Shown one piece after another: positions 1,761 through 14,623 of a DNA stretch of 14,623 nt. The stretch comes from a bacterium (lineage in GTDB: Bacteria > Blakebacterota > Blakebacteria > Blakebacterales > Blakebacteraceae). Each line of letters begins with the position of its first letter. Positions within the stretch are counted from its first letter, which is position 1. Where the stretch lies: NCBI GenBank assembly GCA_025774205.1, contig JALGWK010000012.1, forward strand, positions 1 to 14,623. Reading direction: 5' to 3'. A program made the position numbers and the translations under genes. Under the pieces are notes generated by a model. It was not told the origin of the DNA. It did not search any database and saw only the letters and a program-made list of their open reading frames with translations.

Positions 1761-4700
1761 ATGAGAGCCTCCCTGACATCGAAGAACAGGCCTCCAGGGA
1801 TCGCCGAACTGCGGACCCTGACCTTTCGGATGAGCTGGCTGGTGCCGGCGCTCGTCCTCCTGGCTCTCTACCTCGGTTTCGGCGGCTGGCGACCGTGGGC
1901 ATTCCTCGCCCTGATTCCGGCCTGGCTGGCGGTGAGGTCGTCCGGCCGTTCGGCCGTCGCGGATCCCCTGGGCAGGTTGAAGTGGTTCCTTGCGGGCCTT
2001 GCCCTGCTGGCCGCGGTCGGGAACGCGGCGCTGCCGCTGCATACCCCGGAGCACGTGCTCGACAACCGGGACCGGGAAGATCGGGAGGCCGTGGCCACCG
2101 CGGTCGACCGTATACAGGAACACCTTGAGAACACCATTGGAACCACCCTGGAGGCGCTCACAGATCCAACCCGAGGCCCGGGCACGAGGGAGCGACTGGA
2201 GAGCGTGATTCCCGATCTGCCAGCCGTGATACAGGGCAGCGTGGCCCTGGCTCTCTTCCGGGGTGAGGGGGAGACGATAGCCTGGGCCGGATCGCCGTGG
2301 CTGGTACCGGCCCGGATCGACGATCCCGGTGAAGGGAGTGGGAGCGCGATCACCGATGATCTCCGGTTCGTCATCGCCGGAGATGAACTTTCGGCAATGG
2401 CCTACGTGGTGAAGGAGGTGCCGGGGGGGACCCTGGTGGCTGCCGGTCTCCTGGCCCGCGACCGGGCCCACCCCGACCTGGCTCCCGGATCTGAACCGCT
2501 CCTCGACCTCATCCTTCCCGACCGGGTGGCGGCGAGACTCATCATCACCTCGGGGGGGATCCCGCCCCGAACCGTAACCATCGAACCGGGACCGTGGAGC
2601 GGGAACACCATCCCGTGGCCGGGCAGGGGAGCCGTGCAGGTCGCGCTGCTCTGCTTCATCCTCATCATCAGTCTGCTCCTCCTCGGTCGGGACAACTCCA
2701 TCGCCAGGGGACTGTCTGCGGCGCCCGTGATCTACGCCTCGGTGGTACCCCTGGTCCTCGGGGCGGCTGCCCGCCCGCTTTCGCTCGATCTGATAGCCCC
2801 TTCATGGACCGGCCACCAGCTCATCAACCAGGCCTTCCTGGCCGTGGCGGCGGCCGGACTGGCCCTCTGGTTCGCGCTCGGTGTCCGCGCCAGGCTCAAA
2901 GACGCGGGGGGACACCGGTTCACCACTCTTCAGAGTCTCTCCGCCGGTCTGCTCCTGCTGGTGATCTGGCCGGTCGGCCTGGCGCTTCTGCAGGATCTCT
3001 TCCGCTTTGCCCCGGGCTGGTTCTGGGCCCGGGTCAGCTTCCTGCCGCCCATCTCCGATCTCATCGGCTGGCTGATCGCCATCGCCATGATCCTTGGGGT
3101 CACCAGCTTCTCCGCCGGCGCGGCCGCCCTGATCCGGAACCGGTACGGGCGACCGGGGTACGCGGCAGCGGCCGTCCTGGCGTTGTCAGGCGGAGTCCTG
3201 GCCCGCGTGACGGGGGCGTGGGACGGCGCCCTCCTGACGGGTGCCCTGACGGCGGTGGTCGGTACCGCGGGCGCCGCGCTCTGGTTGAGACGGAGCGGTC
3301 GAAGCACTGCCCTGGCGACCCTCCTCGGGATCGGCGTGGTGAGCGCGGTGACCCTGCTGCCCGTCAAGGGACAGCTGGGACGGGTTATCATCCGGGGGAC
3401 GGTAGAAGAATACGCGGCGGGCATGGCCGGCACGGGAGTAGGCCTCACCCCGATGGAGGTCATGGAGATCACCCCCGAACTGAGGAACGCCGTTGCCTCG
3501 ATCAGGGGCGCGTCCGACGTGCTTCCGCATCCCTTCGCGAACCCGGCCGATCGTCAGGCCTACCTGGTCTGGCGGGAACTGGAACTGGATGAGGAGGAAC
3601 TTGCCGGGGGAGTCCAGATAGTGGATGAGACCGGCGCGGTAAGGGGTCATTTCATGGATGTCCCCGATCTCTTCGACGTGCCGGATATAGAAAAGGTGCG
3701 ATCGATGCTGGGCCGGGGCGAGGGGCGTCGCGTTCTGACAGCGGGATCACCGGCGGAATTCGGGATCGAAACCCTGCTGGTTGGTGTTCCCGGCGAGGAG
3801 GGGGCGGGATCGCTCCTGCTCGGTGTGCGGCGGCGGCTCCTCGGGATCATGGCCGGCGGCGAGGACCGTATCTGGACCCGGCTCGGCCGGGCCGGTCATG
3901 CCGAACGGGAAGGGCGGCTGGGGGGGGTCCTCTTCCTCCGTCTCTACGATGAGACCTACGGACTGCTTGCCCTGCCGCTCAACCCGACCCTGGTGGAGGC
4001 GCCGGGACAGGTGCCCTCCTCGGTGATCGAGAGGGTCAGGGAGGGTGGCAATCGGGGTGCCTGGTTCCGGAGGGGAGGCTGGGTCGGGAACGGCGCCGAT
4101 GAGTACTATTTCCGGCTGGAGACCGCCTCGGCAGGGCCTCTCATGCCGGGTGGGGTCGTCGTCGAGGAGAACGTGGTCGAACGGGTGGCCTGTCTGGGAG
4201 TGCAGATCCCCGGGCTGTGGGGTCGGGTTGTGGACATGTTGAACGTCTTCATCTTCTTCGCCGCGGCCCTCCTGCTGCTCGGTTGGCTGCCGGCGGCGGT
4301 GGTGGCCGGGAGCGGCATCCCGATCGCGCGCGTCCTCCGACGGGTTTCCTTCCAGACGAGACTCCTGATCCCGCTGCTGGTGGTGGCCCTGGTGCCGCTG
4401 GTGGCCCTCTGGCTCCTGACGCGGGGCTTCATCCTCAACCGGGAACGATCGGCGTGGGAAGAGGGGCTCGAACAAAGCGTAAGCGACGTGCAGCAGGCGG
4501 TACTGACCCAGACCGGGGAGCAGGCCGCGGAACTGGTACGGATCCGGGAGCAGATGTCAGGATCTCCGATGAGAGAAGTGGATCTCGGACCGGGGGCCCT
4601 GTGGGCGATATTCGATGAGAACCTCTTTCGGGTGGCCGGCACGATACCCGACTCCCTGGCCGAGCGGATCCCGTTGCGGGACACAAAGTTCGCCAGGGGA

Positions 4701-6029
4701 CCTGGATCCTTCCTCTTCCGGTCGGGAGGTCTCTGGGCGGTAGCCATCCTCCCGTTGGAAGGGGGGTATGAAGAGGGCGCGGCGATCGTCGTGCGACCCT
4801 TCACAGCCGATCTGCTCAGGGAGGCGGCCAGCGGATCGGAATGGCAGGTCGACCTGTTCATCGACGGACGTCTGCGCGCTTCGACCGGTCCCGGCCCGTA
4901 TACGGCCGGACTCCTGCCGACCCTGCTGCCCTCCGAAGCAGAGTGGCAGGGATTGCGGGGCCGGGAGGTGGGCACTTTCAGCTGGGGAGAACTGGGCGGG
5001 CTCCATTACCTCTACGCCTACCGACCCATCACCGATCACACCGGGACCGCGGTCGGTACCATCGCCCGGAGGCGATTCGGTCTGTGGGGTGTGAACGATC
5101 CGGCCCTGAACGAACTCTTCACCACCGTGGCCAGCATCTACCTCCTCCTGGTGGTAGCGGTCACCCTGGTGGCCTTGCTGGTGGCCAGCCGGATCTCGCA
5201 GCCGATCGGGGACCTCACCCGCTCGGCCGTCAGGGTGGCCGGAGGCGATCTCGGCGTGGAGATCCCGGTCACGCGGGGTGACGAGGTGGGCGGGCTCCAG
5301 AAGGCCTTCCGGCAGATGGTGATCGCCCTGCGGGAGAACCGCGATGAACTGGCCCGGGCCGAGCGGGAACGGGCGTGGCAGGAGATGGCCCGCCAGGTTG
5401 CCCACGAGATCAAGAATCCGCTCACCCCGATGCAGCTCTCGGCCCAGTTCATCCGGCGGGCCTACGATGAGAAGGCCGATAATCTCGATTCGATCGTGAG
5501 TGACTGCACCGACACCATCGTGGAGCAGGTGGAGGCGCTGCGGCGGATCGCCAACGAGTTCTCCGCCTACGCCCGCCTGCCGGTGGTGAACCGGGAGCCG
5601 ACCGACCTGAACGTACCGGTGGAGGATGCCCTGAACCTCTTCGAGCCGGCCCTGCCCGACGGGGTTACCCTGGTGCGGGATCTGGCCGACGATATCCCGG
5701 AGGTCATGCTCGACCTCGAACAGATCCGACGGCTCACCATCAACCTGATCAGGAACTCCATCGACGCCATGGGGGAGGAGGGGACCCTCACCGTCACGAC
5801 CGGTCACGACCCGGCGGAAGTCTGGCTGCAGGTGCGGGATACCGGCGAGGGGATCGCTCCCGAAGTGCAGGATCGACTCTTCGAACCCTACTTCTCGACG
5901 CGGACCGAGGGGACCGGTCTCGGCCTGGCCATCACCCGGGCCATCGTGGATGCCTTCGGCGGCACTCTCACCGTCGACAGCCGGCCGGGCGAAGGCACGA
6001 CCATGACAGCCCGCTTTCCCTGCCCCTGA
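1761..6029 (+). CDS. Giant membrane sensor histidine kinase, NtrY-like catalytic end, about 14 TM spans
   Basis: 1422 residues. The catalytic end is clear: HAMP about 1143-1195, H-box VAHEIKNPLTPMQ with phospho-acceptor H1215, N-box N1332 (LIRNSIDAM), G1 box DTGEG (D1360, G1362, G1364), F box LFEPYFSTR and G2 box GTGLGLA (from G1384). The H-box is of the NtrY subgroup, whose partners are often NtrC-family activators. I count 14 hydrophobic spans: about 25-40, 44-58, 75-93, 291-309, 319-337, 357-376, 392-412, 433-456, 467-484, 490-509, 516-534, 824-845, 867-888, 1120-1142. This leaves three extracytoplasmic domains (94-289, 535-823, 889-1117). The loops that should be cytoplasmic are Arg-rich (RARLK, RNRYGR, RRSGR, RVLRR), which agrees with the topology. 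The ATG at 1761 abuts AAAGGG, too close for normal Shine-Dalgarno spacing, so translation may be leaderless or start later; ATG at 1830 would shorten it by 23 residues. The ligand is unknown and no response regulator is adjacent. Confidence 0.9.
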   Translation: MRASLTSKNRPPGIAELRTLTFRMSWLVPALVLLALYLGFGGWRPWAFLALIPAWLAVRSSGRSAVADPLGRLKWFLAGLALLAAVGNAALPLHTPEHVLDNRDREDREAVATAVDRIQEHLENTIGTTLEALTDPTRGPGTRERLESVIPDLPAVIQGSVALALFRGEGETIAWAGSPWLVPARIDDPGEGSGSAITDDLRFVIAGDELSAMAYVVKEVPGGTLVAAGLLARDRAHPDLAPGSEPLLDLILPDRVAARLIITSGGIPPRTVTIEPGPWSGNTIPWPGRGAVQVALLCFILIISLLLLGRDNSIARGLSAAPVIYASVVPLVLGAAARPLSLDLIAPSWTGHQLINQAFLAVAAAGLALWFALGVRARLKDAGGHRFTTLQSLSAGLLLLVIWPVGLALLQDLFRFAPGWFWARVSFLPPISDLIGWLIAIAMILGVTSFSAGAAALIRNRYGRPGYAAAAVLALSGGVLARVTGAWDGALLTGALTAVVGTAGAALWLRRSGRSTALATLLGIGVVSAVTLLPVKGQLGRVIIRGTVEEYAAGMAGTGVGLTPMEVMEITPELRNAVASIRGASDVLPHPFANPADRQAYLVWRELELDEEELAGGVQIVDETGAVRGHFMDVPDLFDVPDIEKVRSMLGRGEGRRVLTAGSPAEFGIETLLVGVPGEEGAGSLLLGVRRRLLGIMAGGEDRIWTRLGRAGHAEREGRLGGVLFLRLYDETYGLLALPLNPTLVEAPGQVPSSVIERVREGGNRGAWFRRGGWVGNGADEYYFRLETASAGPLMPGGVVVEENVVERVACLGVQIPGLWGRVVDMLNVFIFFAAALLLLGWLPAAVVAGSGIPIARVLRRVSFQTRLLIPLLVVALVPLVALWLLTRGFILNRERSAWEEGLEQSVSDVQQAVLTQTGEQAAELVRIREQMSGSPMREVDLGPGALWAIFDENLFRVAGTIPDSLAERIPLRDTKFARGPGSFLFRSGGLWAVAILPLEGGYEEGAAIVVRPFTADLLREAASGSEWQVDLFIDGRLRASTGPGPYTAGLLPTLLPSEAEWQGLRGREVGTFSWGELGGLHYLYAYRPITDHTGTAVGTIARRRFGLWGVNDPALNELFTTVASIYLLLVVAVTLVALLVASRISQPIGDLTRSAVRVAGGDLGVEIPVTRGDEVGGLQKAFRQMVIALRENRDELARAERERAWQEMARQVAHEIKNPLTPMQLSAQFIRRAYDEKADNLDSIVSDCTDTIVEQVEALRRIANEFSAYARLPVVNREPTDLNVPVEDALNLFEPALPDGVTLVRDLADDIPEVMLDLEQIRRLTINLIRNSIDAMGEEGTLTVTTGHDPAEVWLQVRDTGEGIAPEVQDRLFEPYFSTRTEGTGLGLAITRAIVDAFGGTLTVDSRPGEGTTMTARFPCP

Positions 6030-6455: not shown

Positions 6456-9400
6456 ATGCGACGGTTGTTGCGTGACAGGGCACCAGGTCGGATCAGACCG
6501 GTCTGCATGGCGATCATCGCTTTCACCCTCTTCCTCCCGCGGACCGGTCTTTCCCAGAATGGGGTGCCGGTCAGCTCTCCCTCCATCCAGGTCGACCGGG
6601 CTGAACAGGATTACCGGTTCATCCGGGGATTGATATCCGACGGCCTCTACCCGACGGCGCTCGATCAGATCCACCAGTTCCTCTCCACCCATTCGACCTC
6701 CAGACGGATCGAGGAGGTCCGCCTGCTGCAGGCGGAGGTGCGCTTTATAGAAGGGGAATATCGGCAGGTCGTAGACCTGCTGCGGGCCTTCACGATCGCC
6801 TACCCGCAGAGTTCCTTCCTCGACCAGGCTCTCTACCGGCGGGGTGAAGCGTATTTCAAGCTGGGGGATTACGAGGCGGCATCGGCCGATTTCGAAGGGC
6901 TTGCCCGGCAGCGGCCCGACTCCGATCTGCTCGACCGGACCAGTTACTGGCTGGGGGAATCACGGCTCCGGCAGGGGGACCATGAGCGGGCGCGTCAGGC
7001 CTACCAGAGCGTCTACCACAACAACGCCGACTCCCCGGTCGCCGATTACGCCCTCTACAGCATGGGCTGGATCGCGCAGGAACTGGAGGAGTATGGCGAC
7101 GCGGTGACGTACTACCAGCGGGTTGTGGATGAATACATGGGCAGCGATCTGCTCTCCACATGTCTCTTCAAGATGGGGCAGTGTTACTTCGCCATGCAGC
7201 AGTACTCCGAGGCGGCCGACGCGATGACGCAGGTCATCCAGCTCGATCTCGGTCCCGAGGTCTCGGCCAACGCCGGGTTCCTGCTGGGCGAATCGTACTA
7301 CCACCTGGAGGAGTACACTCTCGCCCGGCGCCATTACGAACGGGTTGCCGGAGATCATCCCGACCATGAAGCCGCGCCCGAGGCCCGGGTCGCCATCGGC
7401 TGGACATATCTGAAGGAGGGAGAGGCCGCTTCCGCAGCGACGGCCTTCGCGGCGGCGGTCGAACAGTACCCCGACAGTCCCGTCGCCGGCGGAGCGCAGT
7501 ACCGGCTGGGGGTTGCCCTCAAGGAAGCGGGACGGGGGGATGAGGCCCTCGATGCCTTCCTCGCCACCGCCGACCGCTACCCCGCTGATGAATGGTCTGA
7601 GGACGCCCTCCTGGAGGCGGCTCTGATCCGCTACCGCCAGGGCGCCTGGGCCCGGTCGCGCGAGATACTCCAGCGCATCCTGACCGACTATCAGACCAGT
7701 TCCCTGGCGGCCGAATCCGCGGAACTGCTCGGCGAGTGCTGGCTCGCGGAGGGCAACTGGATCGAGGCCGCGAATGCCTTCCAGGCCGTGATCACCGGCT
7801 GGCCCGGCGCCTCCACTGCCTCCCTGGCGCTCTTCCAGCGATCGTACTGCCTCTTCCAGCTGGGTCGACTCACCGAGGCCGCGGAAGGATTTGCCCTCTA
7901 CCGCCGTGAGAACGGCGCGGATCCGATGGCGCCTGACGCCCTCTTCTTCCAGGCCGAGGCTGTCTACCGGAGTGGAGAGTACGGGGAGAGTGAAGGACTC
8001 TATCGTCGGTACCTCCAGGACTTCCCGGATGGTGAACGGACCATTGACGCCGAATATGGTGTCGGCTGGTCGTTCTTCTCCCGGGATCTGTGGGATTCGG
8101 CGATCGAATCGTTCCGCCGGGTGGTAGCCGCCGGGGGTGGTGACGAGACCCTCAAACGGGACGCTCACCTCCGTATCGCGGACGCCTGGTTCAACCTTCA
8201 CCGCTACCGGGACGCTGCCGTCACCTACAGCAATGTGCTCGACCGCAATCCGGCGGCCGCAGATGCCGACCGGGTGGCGTACTCGTCAGGTGATGCCTAC
8301 ATCAGGGCCGGGCAGTACGAGTCGGCCCTGGCGATCCTCGGCCGGATCGTGGCCCGTTACCCGTCGAGCGAATACTACGATGACGCCCTCTACTGGAGAG
8401 GGTGGTCGCTCTTCCGGATGGAGGAGTACAACCGGGCGATCGAAGAGTACGGCAAGGTGCAGGCGCTCAGGCCGCCGTCGATATACGAACCCGATGCCGG
8501 TTACGGGATAGGGGACGCGCTCTACAACGCCGGTCGGTATGAGGAGGCCCTGGCCGCTTATCGCGCCGTGGCCGATGCGCATCCCGACGAGAACTGGCTG
8601 GCGGAAGCGATCGGCGGGATGCAGTGGTCGCTGGTCCAGCTCGAACGGGACACAGAGGCAGAGGGAGTGGTGGCTGACATGCTGCAGGCGGGCACTCCCG
8701 CCGCGGTGGAGTCCCGGGTGAGGCTCCAGCAGGGGGAGTTCCTCTACAACCAGGAACGGTTCAGTGACGCGACCGACGTATTCGACGCCCTCAGTCGCCG
8801 GGGTTCGGAGGAGGTTCGCGGGGAGGCCACCTACTGGCTGGCGCGGGCGTGGCAGCAACTCGATGATGACGGCCGGGCCGAACGAACTCTCATTACCCTG
8901 CTGACCGATTTCCCGGGGAGTCAATTCACGAACGAAGCCCGGATCCGGCTGGGTCAGCTGCTCTATGAGCGGGAGGCCTTCAGCGAAGCCATCCAGGTCC
9001 TCGAACCGCTTACGAGGTCCTCCCAACCGGAACGGGCCGAAGCGCTCTATTTCCTGGCCCGCTGCCATCTTGAGCTGGGAGATCCGACCCGCACCGAAGT
9101 CGAACTGAGACGGCTGATCGATGACTACCCGGGGAGTCCGGTGGCCGCCCAGGGCCGTCTCCGCATGGCCGAACTGGCCCTGACACGCGGCAACTACAAT
9201 ATCGCCCGGACACAGATCAACACGATCCTGGCTGAGCGGACGGACGAACTGGCCGCCGAGGCGCAATACCTGGCCGGAGAGGTGCTCTTCGCCCAGGAAC
9301 GATGGGCCGAGGCGGAAGTGCAGTACCACCGGATCAAATACGTCTATCCCGCCTTCACTGACTGGATCGCGATGGCTACCTGGCGAGCCGGTGAAGCGAA

Positions 9401-9518
9401 CGTGCGGCTGCAGGAATACGGCAAGGCCCGCGACCTCTTCCAGACGGTGCTCGATGATTATCCCGATACTCCCGCCGCGGCCCTGGCCCGGGCGTCCATC
9501 GAAAGGTTGCCGAGGTGA
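6456..9518 (+). CDS. Secreted giant tetratricopeptide-repeat (TPR) protein
   Basis: 1020 residues from ATG 6456. The N-terminus looks like a signal peptide: basic MRRLLRDR, then a hydrophobic segment at about 17-29 and probable cleavage near residues 33-34 (GLSQ). The rest is almost entirely TPR-type helical hairpins of about 36-37 residues, roughly 26 units, with recurring signatures such as YRRGEAYFKLGDYEAA and a YP or FP close before the next unit. This resembles CpoB/YbgF and BamD-like periplasmic TPR proteins but is several times longer. The start was set by the signal peptide; the Shine-Dalgarno is weak, and ATG at 6507 would remove the basic n-region. Its stop overlaps a GTG of the next frame and lies five bases before the preferred ATG, so it is probably translationally coupled to the downstream barrel. 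Likely role, inferred: a periplasmic scaffold binding partners of the adjacent barrel and TonB complex. No catalytic domain is visible. Confidence 0.88.
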   Translation: MRRLLRDRAPGRIRPVCMAIIAFTLFLPRTGLSQNGVPVSSPSIQVDRAEQDYRFIRGLISDGLYPTALDQIHQFLSTHSTSRRIEEVRLLQAEVRFIEGEYRQVVDLLRAFTIAYPQSSFLDQALYRRGEAYFKLGDYEAASADFEGLARQRPDSDLLDRTSYWLGESRLRQGDHERARQAYQSVYHNNADSPVADYALYSMGWIAQELEEYGDAVTYYQRVVDEYMGSDLLSTCLFKMGQCYFAMQQYSEAADAMTQVIQLDLGPEVSANAGFLLGESYYHLEEYTLARRHYERVAGDHPDHEAAPEARVAIGWTYLKEGEAASAATAFAAAVEQYPDSPVAGGAQYRLGVALKEAGRGDEALDAFLATADRYPADEWSEDALLEAALIRYRQGAWARSREILQRILTDYQTSSLAAESAELLGECWLAEGNWIEAANAFQAVITGWPGASTASLALFQRSYCLFQLGRLTEAAEGFALYRRENGADPMAPDALFFQAEAVYRSGEYGESEGLYRRYLQDFPDGERTIDAEYGVGWSFFSRDLWDSAIESFRRVVAAGGGDETLKRDAHLRIADAWFNLHRYRDAAVTYSNVLDRNPAAADADRVAYSSGDAYIRAGQYESALAILGRIVARYPSSEYYDDALYWRGWSLFRMEEYNRAIEEYGKVQALRPPSIYEPDAGYGIGDALYNAGRYEEALAAYRAVADAHPDENWLAEAIGGMQWSLVQLERDTEAEGVVADMLQAGTPAAVESRVRLQQGEFLYNQERFSDATDVFDALSRRGSEEVRGEATYWLARAWQQLDDDGRAERTLITLLTDFPGSQFTNEARIRLGQLLYEREAFSEAIQVLEPLTRSSQPERAEALYFLARCHLELGDPTRTEVELRRLIDDYPGSPVAAQGRLRMAELALTRGNYNIARTQINTILAERTDELAAEAQYLAGEVLFAQERWAEAEVQYHRIKYVYPAFTDWIAMATWRAGEANVRLQEYGKARDLFQTVLDDYPDTPAAALARASIERLPR

Positions 9519-9523
9519 GCGCG

Positions 9524-11284
9524 ATGAGCGGATCGGGAAGCGGATCGGAAAGGCGTGCGTGTGAGATGACGCGATCGGTCGCGCTGATGCTCCTGCTGGC
9601 TGCGGCCGGATGGAACCTGCTGCCGGTCGGGGCCGCCGGGCAGGTGACGCAGCAGGCGGTCCAGGACACCAGCGGCAAACGACAGACCCTGCCGCCGCTG
9701 GCATTGCCCGACATCGTGATCCTCGGTCGTGACAGTGCCATGGTCAGGGAGGGAAGCAAGCTCTTCACATCGGTAAAGCGGACCGCCCTCGAACGGGAGA
9801 TCGGCGCTCCGCTCGGGGAGAAGCTGGAGAGCCGGACAGGTCTGGGCGGTGGTCGAACCTTCGCCGCCAGGGATAATGCAGATCCCGGCCGGCAGGCGCG
9901 GGCGTATCTGCGGGGCGGTACCTTTGACTATCTCGGAGGGGCCGAGTACTGGACCGACCTTCGGCAATGGCGTCTGGTGACCGAAGCCGGCGGGGCGGGT
10001 ACCAGGGAGCACATCGACAACAGTGCCGCGCTGGAAGGTTTCGGGCGGGCGACCTTGATCCGTCGTCTGGGGACCAATACTGAACTGAGGATCCGGGCCG
10101 GGTTCTCCGGCGGCCGGCAGGAGGAGTGGGGCGACGCGATCACCATCGCCGGACTGCCCGGACTGCAGGCAGCCCCGGCTGACGCCGCCCGCACCTGGAT
10201 CGACGGCACGTACGGGCTGGAATTCGAGAGCACGCTCCGGCGAGGACTCACTTTCCGGGCGGGTGCCGGCGGTCGGCACACGGAACTGCGGGACAATACC
10301 AGACAGGCACCGACCACTCTTGAGCCGGGCAGCAACGGCGGCTGGGCCGATCTCGGCCTGGAATGGGTCACCGGCAGGACGATCTTTGCCCTTTCCGGAC
10401 GGGCCGAGGGGGATGGGGTCAAGGGGGTCCTCCCGGGCCGCACGGTCAGCCTGGTCACGAGTGAAGTATCGATGCAGACGCTCGTTGGTGAAGCGCGCAA
10501 CTTCCACCTGGGCGCGGTCGTCTACCAGCTCAATGACGGTTTGTCCACGATCACGCGGATCTGGCCCCGGGTGAGCTTCTCGTCCCGGTATTCCGATCGG
10601 TTCAGGATGTACGTCCGGTATCATCCCGCCATCGATTATCTCTCCCTCAGCGCGGCCCGGGTCGCGAATCCCTTTGTGGCCAACAGTTTTACGGTCACTC
10701 CTCGTCGCGAGCGATTCAACCTGGCGATCGGTCTTACCTACACCGTGGCTCCCAGGATCGAAATGGAGTTCCAGGTGGCCCGGCGGATATTCGAATTGAT
10801 GCCGGTCTGGCGGCGGGTTGACCTGACGAACGAAAGCAACAGCCGCGGGCTCTTCATGCTCGACGGCATCGATTCCCCCGGTCTGAACGAGACCCGACTG
10901 GGCCTCCGGGGAGATCCATCCGAGCGGTTTGTCTTCTCTTCGGAAGTCGTGCTCCGGGACGTTACCGGGGGGGGAGGGATCGAGGAACTGCCGCATATCC
11001 CGCGATTTGAATTCACGGGCGGGATCAACACGGTCGGACCGTGGAACATTGAGCTGGGTGCCGAGGTTATATGGCTGGGGGAGCGGTACGGGGATAGTGC
11101 CGGACTCTCCTCCCGGAGACTCGAGCCGGCGGCTGATCTGAGCCTCCGAACAGCCCGTAAGTTCGGTGATCTGTTGACTGTCTGGCTGGAACTGAGGAAC
11201 GTGCTCGACCGGGAGATCGTAATCTGGGAAGGGTACCCGATGCCGGGACGAACGACCGCCCTCGGGATTTCGCTTCGGTTCTGA
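9524..11284 (+). CDS. TonB-dependent-receptor-like outer-membrane barrel lacking a plug domain
   Basis: 586 residues from ATG 9524, chosen because GAGGTGA at 9512-9518 is five bases upstream. GTG 9515 (overlapping the TPR stop) and ATG 9566 are alternatives that keep the signal peptide (hydrophobic 18-38, cleavage near AAG/Q). After the signal comes LPDIVILGRDS (61-71), reminiscent of a TonB-box/early-plug stretch. Barrel-like strands then begin within about 30-40 residues, so there is no room for the plug of about 130 residues seen in true receptors. The C-terminus (RNVLDREIVIWEGYPMPGRT, then LGISLRF) is the classic end of a TonB-dependent receptor and closes with Phe. It sits between the TPR gene and exbB-exbD-tonB, which suggests energised use of an unplugged barrel or a barrel serving as an anchor. 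Generic beta-barrel similarity is the main alternative. Confidence 0.8.
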   Translation: MSGSGSGSERRACEMTRSVALMLLLAAAGWNLLPVGAAGQVTQQAVQDTSGKRQTLPPLALPDIVILGRDSAMVREGSKLFTSVKRTALEREIGAPLGEKLESRTGLGGGRTFAARDNADPGRQARAYLRGGTFDYLGGAEYWTDLRQWRLVTEAGGAGTREHIDNSAALEGFGRATLIRRLGTNTELRIRAGFSGGRQEEWGDAITIAGLPGLQAAPADAARTWIDGTYGLEFESTLRRGLTFRAGAGGRHTELRDNTRQAPTTLEPGSNGGWADLGLEWVTGRTIFALSGRAEGDGVKGVLPGRTVSLVTSEVSMQTLVGEARNFHLGAVVYQLNDGLSTITRIWPRVSFSSRYSDRFRMYVRYHPAIDYLSLSAARVANPFVANSFTVTPRRERFNLAIGLTYTVAPRIEMEFQVARRIFELMPVWRRVDLTNESNSRGLFMLDGIDSPGLNETRLGLRGDPSERFVFSSEVVLRDVTGGGGIEELPHIPRFEFTGGINTVGPWNIELGAEVIWLGERYGDSAGLSSRRLEPAADLSLRTARKFGDLLTVWLELRNVLDREIVIWEGYPMPGRTTALGISLRF

Positions 11285-11328
11285 AGTGTCATGTCAGGCA
11301 GCAAACGTCGGCACCGAGAGTGACGCCG
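11285..11328 (+). repeat. Repeated intergenic element, copy 2 (upstream of exbB)
   Basis: Matches 6323-6366: identical AGTGTCATGT at 11285-11294, then a 25-base block at 11304-11328 with one mismatch. It begins directly after the stop codon of the barrel gene and ends 51 bases before the exbB start. Here only the left TGTCA half-site is kept; the palindrome seen in copy 1 is lost. The octamer CGAGAGTG recurs at 11339-11346. Confidence 0.8.
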
Positions 11329-11379
11329 GGCAGAGTTTCGAGAGTGCCGGTGGACCGGTTTTGTGAGAAGGAGTAGTGG

Positions 11380-12039
11380 ATGAACATCTTCGATATCCTG
11401 GTGAGTGGCGGCTGGCTGATGATCCCGATCGCGATCTGCTCCTTCATAGGGGCGGGGATCGTTGCTGAACGCTGGCTCACCCTGCGCAAGGCGCGGGTCA
11501 ATACAGGCACCCTCATGAACCGGGTCCGACAGGCCCTCCGGGGCGGAGAGATCGGGAGAGCGATCGATGTCTGTGACGAGACGCCGGGGCCGATAGCGCG
11601 CCTCATCAAGGAGGGTGTGCTCCGGGCAGGCGCCAGCCGCGACCTGATCCGGGAGACTGTCGAGGCGACCGGCAAGGCCGAACTCTACAAACTGGAGCGG
11701 GGGCTCGGCGCCCTGGCTACAGTGGCCGGGATCGCGCCCCTCCTCGGCTTCCTTGGAACGGTGACAGGCATGATCCGGGCCTTCATGGAGATCCAGGGTC
11801 TCGGCGGTCAGGTGAACGCCACCGTGCTGGCCGGCGGTATCTGGGAAGCGCTCATGACCACCGCGGCCGGCCTGAGCGTAGGCATCCCGGCACTCATCTT
11901 CTACAACTGGCTGGTGGGGCAGGTGGAGCACTTCGTGTTCGAGATGGAACGGTCGAGCATGGAACTGCTCGATCTGCTGGGTGGAGAATCCGTCATGAAT
12001 GGAGGGGACGTCCTCCAGGAGGCGGAGTATGGACATTAA
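11380..12039 (+). CDS. exbB: ExbB/TolQ/MotA-family proton channel subunit
   Basis: 219 residues, inner membrane. Three spans are visible at about 10-29, 112-134 and 150-177, separated by the large cytoplasmic loop typical of the family. The second and third spans carry the family patterns APLLGFLGTVTGMI (119-132) and ALMTTAAGLSVGIPA (157-171), including the polar Thr residues that line the proton path. The start is well supported by AAGGAG at 11368-11373, six bases before the ATG. It overlaps exbD by 11 bases, so the two are translationally coupled. With ExbD it should form the proton-driven motor that energises the TonB protein encoded next. TolQ is an alternative name, but the TonB partner favours ExbB. 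Confidence 0.93.
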   Translation: MNIFDILVSGGWLMIPIAICSFIGAGIVAERWLTLRKARVNTGTLMNRVRQALRGGEIGRAIDVCDETPGPIARLIKEGVLRAGASRDLIRETVEATGKAELYKLERGLGALATVAGIAPLLGFLGTVTGMIRAFMEIQGLGGQVNATVLAGGIWEALMTTAAGLSVGIPALIFYNWLVGQVEHFVFEMERSSMELLDLLGGESVMNGGDVLQEAEYGH

Positions 12040-12445
12040 AACGAGCCGGAAGCGGATCCATACGTTCAGCGCCATCGGCCTGACCGATATCGTCATGCTC
12101 CTGCTCATATTCTTCCTGCTGAGCAGCACCTTCATCCTCCAGCCGGGGATCAAGGTGGATCTCCCCGAGGCGCAGGTGACCGAGACGGTGGATCAGGAAA
12201 CCCTGACGGTGACCATCCCTTTAAGCGGCGGCGTCTACCTGAACGACCAGCCTGTCTCACTGGCCGAACTCCCCGCCCGGCTCATGCAGGAGCTGGCGCA
12301 GGGAGCCGAAAAGGACATCATCCTGCGAGCTGATGGGGATATTCCCTTCCGGCGGGCGGTGGAGGTGATGGACATCGCCAAGCGGGTCGGTGCCGCGCGT
12401 TTCCTGATCGCCACCCGTAAGGAAGAGGAGGGAGGCGGAGGGTGA
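12029..12445 (+). CDS. exbD: ExbD/TolR-family biopolymer transport protein
   Basis: 138 residues with a short basic cytoplasmic N-terminus (KTSRKR), one span at about 18-38, then a periplasmic domain. D20 (in GLTDIVMLLLIFFLL) is the membrane aspartate expected to carry protons, equivalent by position to E. coli ExbD D25. ATG 12029 is preferred over the upstream in-frame ATG at 11999, because a GGAGGCGGAG stretch lies just before it and the family N-terminus starts there. The periplasmic part (DLPEAQVTE and ILRADGDIPF blocks) is standard for the family. The C-terminal EEEGGGG tail is low-complexity. It is partnered with the overlapping exbB. Confidence 0.93.
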   Translation: MDIKTSRKRIHTFSAIGLTDIVMLLLIFFLLSSTFILQPGIKVDLPEAQVTETVDQETLTVTIPLSGGVYLNDQPVSLAELPARLMQELAQGAEKDIILRADGDIPFRRAVEVMDIAKRVGAARFLIATRKEEEGGGG

Positions 12446-12451
12446 CCTTTA

Positions 12452-12473
12452 TGCCCTGTCACGCAACATGACA
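12452..12473 (-). promoter_or_regulatory. Palindrome TGTCA-N7-TGACA over the tonB start, with an extended repeat arm
   Basis: Bases 12457-12473 form TGTCA-N7-TGACA with perfect five-base half-sites, and the tonB ATG (12468-12470) lies inside it. Read on the minus strand, it shares the TGTCATGTT-R-CGTGAC pattern with 6325-6340 (one mismatch). The 17 bases 12452-12468 are also an exact inverted copy of 6466-6482, just inside the TPR gene start. The site has operator form, but translational or mobile-repeat explanations remain open. Confidence 0.55.
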
Positions 12474-13238
12474 TTCAGCCTGGATGACAGACGTTTCCAG
12501 GGCTGGATGCTGTCGGCTCTCTTCCACACCCTGCTGGCGGTTCTCTTCCTGACGATCGGTATAGAACTTCAGGTGCTGCCCGAAGAATACAGCGAGGTCA
12601 TCCTTTTCGACCTCTCTGCCAGCATGGCTTCCTTCAGGGAGAGCGAGAGTGCCGGCGTACCGGCCTCGAGCGCTCCTGAGCAGATCGAGTCGAGTACCTC
12701 GGTGGCGATACCGGAGCGCCGCCCGATACGGGTACCGGATGAGGCGGTAGCGGTGTCGAGCCGGCAGGAGGCCGATGTGCCCCGGATCGAACCCTCCCGG
12801 GTTATCGATCAACTGCAGCGCGCGGGCCAGGAACGCCCGACGACCAGGCCGGGCACGACTGCTGGTGACCGTCTCCTCCCTCCCTCGACCGGTCTGCCGG
12901 AGGGCCTGATCCGGCCCGATCAGACGGCTGCCGGGGGTGGGGGAAGTACCGAATCGCCATGGCAGATCCAGTGGATCGGACAGAATCGTGACGTGGTCCG
13001 CAGCGTACTGCCGGAATATCCGGCCGGAATCGACCGGGAAGTCAAGCTGCAGTTCCGTTTCTCGGTCACACCAACCGGTGAGGTGACGGCCATCAGACCC
13101 CTCCAGAAGGGTGATCCGACTCTTGAGGGGGCCGCCCTTACTGCCTTGCGACAGTGGAAGTTCCAGCCGTTACCGGCCGTTTCGATCCAGGCCAATCAGG
13201 AGGCGGTCATCACGCTCCGGTTCCGGGTCCGCTTCTGA
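12468..13238 (+). CDS. tonB: TonB-family energy transducer
   Basis: 256 residues. A short cytoplasmic N-terminus precedes one span at about 13-32. S16 and H20 within it match the SxxxH motif that couples TonB to ExbB/ExbD; E. coli TonB has the same residue numbers. A periplasmic linker (about 40-165) is Pro/Ser/Thr/Arg-containing and less Pro-Lys-rich than the enterobacterial one. The C-terminal TonB domain (about 182-234) shows LPEYPAGIDREVKLQFRFSV, then PTGEV and ALTALRQWKFQP, the family hallmarks. It starts 22 bases after exbD. No clear Shine-Dalgarno precedes the ATG; the start codon lies in a palindrome, and coupling to exbD is likely. ATG 12507 is an alternative but would remove part of the N-terminal motif. 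It should contact the adjacent receptor-like barrel. Confidence 0.92.
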   Translation: MTFSLDDRRFQGWMLSALFHTLLAVLFLTIGIELQVLPEEYSEVILFDLSASMASFRESESAGVPASSAPEQIESSTSVAIPERRPIRVPDEAVAVSSRQEADVPRIEPSRVIDQLQRAGQERPTTRPGTTAGDRLLPPSTGLPEGLIRPDQTAAGGGGSTESPWQIQWIGQNRDVVRSVLPEYPAGIDREVKLQFRFSVTPTGEVTAIRPLQKGDPTLEGAALTALRQWKFQPLPAVSIQANQEAVITLRFRVRF

Positions 13239-13564: not shown

Positions 13565-13960
13565 ATGCGCAATCAGAAAGGTTTCACCCTGATAGAGCTG
13601 CTGATTGTGATCGTGATCATCGGTATTCTGGCTGCTGTCGCGATCCCGCGGTTCCAGGGTGTATCAGACAAGGCGAAGATCGGTGCCGCCAAGGCCGAAC
13701 TTGCCACCATCAAGAACCTCCTGGGTATGTACCAGGCGGAGAACGACACCTCGGCCTACCCGGCCACGGGTGACATCACAAGCATGGCCACGTTGCAGAC
13801 GATCCTATCCCCTTACGGAATGATCCCGGCTGCTGCTGAAGCAGCCTGGGCATTCAACACGTACGCCCGAGCGACGGAGGATACCTTTGTGCTCACGGGC
13901 AAGGCGAATGACAGAACCCGAACGGTGATCAACGTCACACCGACTGTGATCACGCCGTAA
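13565..13960 (+). CDS. Type IV pilin / type II pseudopilin (class III signal peptide)
   Basis: 131 residues. The prepilin leader is MRNQKG, cut before F7 (FTLIELLIVIVIIGILAAVAIP), with the mature Glu5 required for assembly. The N-terminal hydrophobic helix doubles as membrane anchor and fibre core. The segment following (AKAELATIKNLLGMYQAEND, then YPATGDI) resembles GspG-type major pseudopilins and short geobacterial-type pilins. The mature length of 125 is shorter than a classical PilA. The start is fixed by GGAGG at 13552-13556, eight bases before the ATG. It has its own sigma-54 promoter and terminator, so it is probably monocistronic and highly expressed. The prepilin peptidase 165 bases downstream is its likely processing enzyme. 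PilA and GspG cannot be separated from sequence alone, so no symbol is given. Confidence 0.92.
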   Translation: MRNQKGFTLIELLIVIVIIGILAAVAIPRFQGVSDKAKIGAAKAELATIKNLLGMYQAENDTSAYPATGDITSMATLQTILSPYGMIPAAAEAAWAFNTYARATEDTFVLTGKANDRTRTVINVTPTVITP

Positions 13961-14125: not shown

Positions 14126-14623
14126 GTGACAGAGGCAGTAACATATCTGGGGCCCTTTGTGGCCCTTGTCTTCGGCGCGACAGTCGGCAGTTTCTGCAAC
14201 GTCTGTATTCATCGACTTCCTCGACGTGAGTCGATCATTTCACCTCCCTCACACTGCCCGCACTGCAATCAGCCGGTCAGGTGGCATGACAATGTCCCGC
14301 TGGTCGGGTATATTCTGTTGAAAGGACGCTGCCGCGATTGCGGAGAGCGGATCAGCGCGCGCTACCCTGCGGTTGAAGGGGCGGTAGCGCTGCTCTGGCT
14401 GGGCCTCTGGTGGTTCAACGGTGGAGAGGTGTGGCCGTTTCTGGCTGACGCCGCGTTCGCCACCACCCTGGTGGTCGGAGTCGGTATCGATCTCGAGCAC
14501 CGGCTGCTACCCGACCGGGTGACCCTGCCGCTGCTCGGACTGGGCCTGCTGATCTCGATCGTACCCGGAGATCTCTCCCCGCTGGAGTCCCTGATCGGGG
14601 CTCTGGCGGGGGGCGGTATCATG
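14126..14623 (+). CDS. pilD: Prepilin peptidase (A24 family), N-terminal 166 residues, 3' end outside window
   Basis: GTG start at 14126 with AGGAG (14113-14117) eight bases upstream; an in-frame TGA lies immediately before it, so no longer start is possible. The product shows the PilD N-terminal domain: GSFCNVCIHRLPRRES (21-36), the zinc-binding pair of CxxC motifs (C44/C47 and C69/C72), then RYPAVE. GIDLEHRLLPDRVTLP (120-135) contains the first catalytic aspartate, D122. The second catalytic motif (GxGD) lies beyond the window, since full-length enzymes are about 250-290 residues. Membrane spans begin at about 8-24, 85-97 and 105-121. The enzyme cleaves the leader of prepilins such as the upstream one and usually N-methylates the new Phe1. 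It is separated from the pilin by a terminator, so it needs its own promoter, which I could not identify. Confidence 0.94.
   Translation, partial: MTEAVTYLGPFVALVFGATVGSFCNVCIHRLPRRESIISPPSHCPHCNQPVRWHDNVPLVGYILLKGRCRDCGERISARYPAVEGAVALLWLGLWWFNGGEVWPFLADAAFATTLVVGVGIDLEHRLLPDRVTLPLLGLGLLISIVPGDLSPLESLIGALAGGGIM

Follow-up and report, generated by a model that had tools for sequence, protein, structure and literature searches.

The 14,623-nucleotide stretch analyzed here (the window; contig JALGWK010000012.1 of assembly GCA_025774205.1, phylum Blakebacterota) carries, at positions 6456–13238, a block of five genes that all lie on the plus strand. These encode, in order, a giant tetratricopeptide repeat (TPR) protein, a barrel of the TonB-dependent transporter (TBDT) type, an ExbB, an ExbD and a TonB, an order and extent that agree with an initial annotation made from the sequence. 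The TPR and barrel genes, described there as nearly overlapping, share 4 bases, and the ExbB and ExbD genes share 11. When the window proteins were scanned with Pfam, matches were obtained to TPR families, MotA_ExbB (2e-32), ExbD (3e-26) and TonB_C (2e-6), and the barrel remained without a match.

A Receptor-Type Barrel Without a Plug

The relationship of the barrel to TBDTs was established with hhalign, using a profile of 45 barrel homologues against six TBDTs, five of which clearly show a TonB box and the beginning of a plug. Residues 118–589 of the barrel align to TBDT positions 152–615 (probability 99.9%, E 8e-36, 449 columns), and template positions 1–151, which hold the box and the plug, are left unmatched; a PorV-like barrel that served as the control reached 1.2% probability in two hhalign runs. 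Consistent with this result, none of the 45 homologues matched the Pfam Plug model (PF07715), while five matched the TBDT barrel model (PF00593). A phmmer search against the PDB matched residues 487–589 to BtuB1 (PDB 8blw, E 8e-5) and returned nothing else of note. Judged from these sequence comparisons, the protein is a complete TBDT-type barrel that lacks a plug, as initially proposed. We considered whether a plug had escaped detection in an otherwise ordinary TBDT and rejected this, given the absence of Plug matches and the unmatched template positions.

The stretch ahead of the barrel domain is made up of a signal peptide followed by some 70 residues, among them LALPDIVILGR. The homologues average 573 residues (standard deviation 24), and a signal peptide starting at Met18 (base 9566) fits them better than the listed start does. 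With the exception of one phylum, that of genome G064, whose gene content suggests Bacteroidota (hereafter Bacteroidota-like), almost every barrel has the motif L-x-L-P-D/E-V/I-L/V/I-I/V-x-G; the regular expression used for the box misses a few evident cases, e.g., WELPEVLVYGRD and LDLREYTITGKN. A tally of motif against adjacent motor (27/16 against 10/10) carries no weight, as it is affected by missed motif spellings and by the variant Bacteroidota-like boxes. In the ordinary receptors of the window genome, the sequences LRLQDVVVTAARS, LEMERVTVTANRR and YTFPTIIVTATRT stand directly ahead of the plugs, and the barrel motif aligns position by position with the TonB boxes that ordinary receptors carry in the same genomes. 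Because of this alignment we read LALPDIVILGR as a kept TonB box, in keeping with the earlier suggestion that LPDIVILGRDS is a likely contact for TonB. The initial annotation also had TonB acting on the plug in normal uptake, which needs amending: TonB grips the box ahead of the plug, and that box is kept here. Two further barrels of this type (L134, 7333–9141; L135, 7270–9090) possess a box and have no adjoining TPR or motor gene.

A Dedicated Motor and a Giant TPR Protein

With respect to the motor, all three proteins combine the expected Pfam families with the key residues. ExbB Thr127 and Thr161, the Asp of the ExbD membrane helix and TonB His20 are each kept in at least 95% of the homologues encoded in related blocks (collectively, the module). 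His20 lies in the TonB membrane helix, which is followed by a proline-rich linker and a TonB_C domain at residues 193–253. In a phylogenetic tree, the module ExbBs, including those of the Bacteroidota-like phylum, group in a single clade (98/95), apart from 33 ExbB paralogues; the exceptions are four module ExbBs on long branches (L137, L140, L141 and L142), which are placed outside the clade with weak support.

This separate ancestry bears out the earlier view of the motor as dedicated, and it extends to genomes in which the motor is detached. In G139, G446 and G441 the TPR–barrel pair stands alone, and an ExbB–ExbD pair of the module clade is encoded elsewhere in the genome, with an adjoining TonB in G139 and G446. 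In G438 (L094, 7127–8764), the module barrel has lost its box, and the four motors that were examined all belong to other types, a joint loss of box and motor that, as a single case, is suggestive only. The window genome (86% complete) yielded only two ExbB-type genes. Its second motor is an ExbB–ExbD–ExbD set (L150, 7335–8785, contig C360) with no TonB, TolA or TolB gene beside it, and the ExbB of this set falls in a clade common to many sampled genomes.

The TPR protein carries a putative signal peptide, and no lipobox was seen in it. In terms of repeats, 24 units were scored at a constant spacing of 37 residues, and one further unit was skipped, for a total of about 25–26; the earlier count of roughly 26 is therefore fair. 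Its length is well maintained (mean 1018 residues, standard deviation 28, in 61 near-complete homologues), and within the window's phylum conservation is highest in the C-terminal quarter. The coordinates of all features are collected in Table 1.

Table 1. Features of the five-gene block, in window coordinates
Feature	Position	Strand	Basis
Giant TPR protein, 1020 aa	6456..9518	+	Pfam, repeat spacing, homologues
TonB-receptor-type barrel without plug, listed as 589 aa	9515..11284	+	Homologue profiles
TonB-box-like motif LALPDIVILGR, residues 62–72, close to mature N-terminus	9698..9730	+	Alignment
Predicted full-length TBDT barrel domain, residues 118–589	9866..11281	+	hhalign, phmmer
ExbB-type proton channel subunit, 219 aa	11380..12039	+	Pfam, tree
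ExbD-type subunit, 138 aa	12029..12445	+	Pfam
TonB-type transducer, 256 aa	12468..13238	+	Pfam TonB_C

Distribution and Gene Neighborhood

Each of the four genomes from the window's phylum has the five-gene order. Profile searches returned 82 barrel loci. Removing two plug-bearing receptors and one barrel of another kind leaves 79 that belong to the family. A TPR gene of roughly 1000 codons lies immediately upstream of the barrel in 73 of these 79 loci, and all five genes are present in 44; contig ends truncate several of the remaining loci. The module is seen directly in five phyla, namely those of the window, G322, G200, G139 and G064, with that of G139 having the TPR–barrel pair and a detached motor. 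It also occurs in G060, G217, G076, G210, G284, G228, G088, G357 and G147, and TPR–barrel pairs occur in G149 and G286; more than five phyla are likely to carry it. The neighborhood comparison proposed at the outset thus finds the genes together repeatedly, and the suspicion of a module recurring in little-studied phyla holds for dozens of genomes and extends to the Bacteroidota-like phylum. A chance neighborhood was rejected, since the order recurs across several phyla and the motor forms its own clade. Matches such as those in G312, G340 and G057 (C306) proved to be ordinary plug-bearing receptors, found through their barrels alone, and were excluded. A scan of plasmids, viral contigs and named genome contigs with a single barrel produced only one named relative, and no description of the module was found in the open-licence literature searched.

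The flanks of the module hold no recurring gene for substrate uptake or export. The sole recurring extra gene, present between barrel and motor in many Bacteroidota-like loci, encodes a protein with a SPOR domain, a type of domain that binds septal peptidoglycan. In some cases this protein is fused to an HU-type domain.

Within the window, the TPR gene is preceded by genes for a PorV/FadL-like barrel (356–1651) and a 1422-residue NtrY-like sensor kinase (1761–6029). The same two genes lie upstream in L008 and L009 (where a contig end cuts the barrel gene), and they are not kept as neighbors outside the window's phylum. Positions 1–351 consist of imperfect 24/45-base repeats that translate, in one frame, into a low-complexity tail rich in Ser, Arg and Pro, and L008 starts with a tail of similar kind. 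Downstream of the module are a GspG/PilA-like prepilin (13565–13960) and a prepilin peptidase (14126–14623), and a prepilin follows the module in L007 as well.

Module Genomes and TolB

We compared the distribution of the module with that of TolB. At E ≤ 1e-5, TolB_N was detected in none of 24 module genomes, whereas of 170 further genomes that encode a TBDT-like barrel, 74 had it (p 5e-6), and the contrast persists when the 24 genomes are counted as 18 families (p 8e-5). The full-length TolA model scores 16.5 bits on the block's TonB (cut-off 59.45), whereas TonB_C scores above its cut-off. No Pal lipoprotein gene is present among the module genes, the rest of the genome not having been searched for one. 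In the available text of a published survey (PMC12204202), tol-pal loci are reported missing in Bacteroidetes and this module is not mentioned.

Interpretation and Alternatives

Our preferred, though tentative, interpretation is that the block encodes a dedicated, proton-driven trans-envelope machine. This machine would transmit force by linking an inner-membrane motor with the outer membrane, and would resemble Tol–Pal without being a member of that system. ExbB and ExbD would constitute the inner-membrane motor and TonB its transducer, the C-terminal domain of which would pair with the box (residues 62–72) in the N-terminal tail of the barrel. With no plug to extract, force would pass to the barrel itself and hence to the outer membrane. 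The TPR solenoid of roughly 1000 residues would act as a periplasmic scaffold, probably keeping the barrel closed or aligned from the periplasmic side. The idea in the initial annotation that TonB acts on the TPR scaffold is conjectural, as is any particular task such as export or bridging. In lineages without TolB, such a machine would most likely serve to keep the outer membrane actively coupled to the inner membrane and the cell wall, as Tol–Pal does. We favor this type of coupling because no substrate gene recurs beside the module, a SPOR protein is its neighbor in one phylum, TolB is absent from module genomes, and Bacteroidetes reportedly lack tol-pal loci. A broader claim, which we advance with greater reserve as a speculative possibility, is that this is an undescribed and ancient proton-driven machine in which TonB pulls a plugless barrel backed by the TPR solenoid, and which, in Bacteroidota-like and other lineages without TolB, takes over the work of Tol–Pal by constricting and tethering the outer membrane at division.

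Several observations weigh against Tol–Pal-like coupling. The operon in the window has no SPOR protein, and in some Bacteroidota-like members the box is changed or lost and no motor adjoins the barrel. The AlphaFold2 model of the barrel, built from two sequences (window and L007), is not usable at a pLDDT (predicted local distance difference test) of 26. The TolB anticorrelation is corrected for shared ancestry to the family level only, and at E ≤ 1e-3 weak TolB_N-like matches appear in three module genomes, including that of the window (E 1.3e-4). Finally, the window genome has at least five plug-bearing receptors, and because its 86%-complete assembly holds only two ExbB-type genes, the block's motor may also serve these ordinary receptors.

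The main rival, which we regard as less likely, is a TonB-energized channel whose barrel is shut from the periplasm by the TPR protein or by the linker that follows the box, and is opened by a pull of TonB for the uptake or export of a large molecule. The retention of a complete receptor barrel suits a channel of this kind, as a mere anchor would not require one; both the box and the motor belong to the type that transporters use, and TPR proteins are known to pair with barrels in exopolysaccharide export. However, no synthase, hydrolase, binding-protein or other substrate gene recurs beside the module, and protein sizes that are near constant over many phyla suit a housekeeping role better than a single substrate. 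Three lines of evidence, namely the lack of a recurring substrate gene, the SPOR neighbor and the TolB anticorrelation, point away from nutrient import.

A role in outer-membrane biogenesis or lipid homeostasis, with the TPR solenoid carrying clients and the motor supplying force for barrel or lipoprotein assembly or for lipid movement, appears improbable. Long TPR proteins do work in outer-membrane assembly and lipoprotein export, the module is widely distributed, and the TPR protein matches BamD/YfiO-like and Slam-like families; these matches are nonetheless generic, and the flanks contain no conserved bam, lpt, mla or lol genes. Still harder to sustain is an ordinary Ton motor that lies by coincidence beside an unrelated barrel and TPR gene. 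Such a motor would serve the usual receptors of the genome, which the window assembly has without any other clear Ton motor, yet the order of the genes and the clade of the motor speak against it, and genomes with several ExbBs retain the module ExbB as well. An accessory role in type IX secretion is very improbable: the TPR protein matches the PorW/SprE family and the upstream barrel matches PorV families, and several hosts have type IX-like sorting tails in flanking genes, but the curated cut-offs of 250 and 90 bits are not reached (scores of 128 and 46 bits, respectively), the PorV-like gene is not a conserved neighbor outside the window's phylum, and type IX secretion has its own motor.

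To our knowledge, every TonB-dependent outer-membrane protein described so far is explained by plug movement, and a widely distributed, co-inherited gene set that retains a barrel, a box and a motor of its own without a plug would imply that the force of TonB is used for another purpose. The module would also be a concrete and testable candidate for how the outer membrane is drawn in at division without Tol–Pal, including in Bacteroidota, and it is present in culturable species.

Comparison with Known Systems

The components have their closest counterparts in TBDTs of the BtuB, FhuA and SusC type and their ExbB–ExbD–TonB motors, which share a homologous full-length barrel (22 strands in the TBDT family), a box at the mature N-terminus, a motor and a transducer. 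Unlike these systems, the module has no plug, has a TPR protein of roughly 1000 residues as its obligate neighbor, and encodes with the barrel a motor of a separate lineage. Exopolysaccharide exporters (PgaA, BcsC, PelB and AlgK–AlgE) likewise combine a long periplasmic TPR array with a plugless outer-membrane barrel. Their barrels belong to other families with 16–18 strands, whereas the module has a TonB motor and no polysaccharide synthase as a conserved neighbor in its flanks.

SusCD/RagAB pedal-bin transporters resemble the module in that a TBDT barrel works with a TPR protein and TonB, and differ in that the barrel has a plug. Their TPR lid sits on the cell surface. In the available portion of PMC11817032, this lid has 4 TPRs. 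The FSU_2397–FSU_2403 cluster of Fibrobacter succinogenes places two TPR proteins near ExbB–ExbD–ExbD–TonB and was interpreted by its authors as serving cellodextrin uptake (PMC6851124); it differs in its two TPR proteins, its two ExbDs and the lack of a barrel identified in that study. The vWA force transducers encoded with TPR, TolQ-like and TolR-like genes (PMC12204202) are similarly uncharacterized transducers, driven by the proton-motive force and adjoining a TPR gene, but they are of the vWA type, and no TBDT-type barrel is reported in the available text. At L203, L206, L208, L210 and L216, a TPR protein lies upstream of a divergent ExbB–ExbD pair, an arrangement that is possibly this vWA-type cluster.

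Tol–Pal (TolQRA–TolB–Pal–CpoB) shares with the module a motor driven by the proton-motive force, a transducer and a TPR protein that act on the outer membrane. The module differs in having a TonB_C transducer, a TBDT-type barrel in place of TolB/Pal and a TPR protein several times larger than CpoB. With TolB absent where the module is present, Tol–Pal provides the best available functional analogy.

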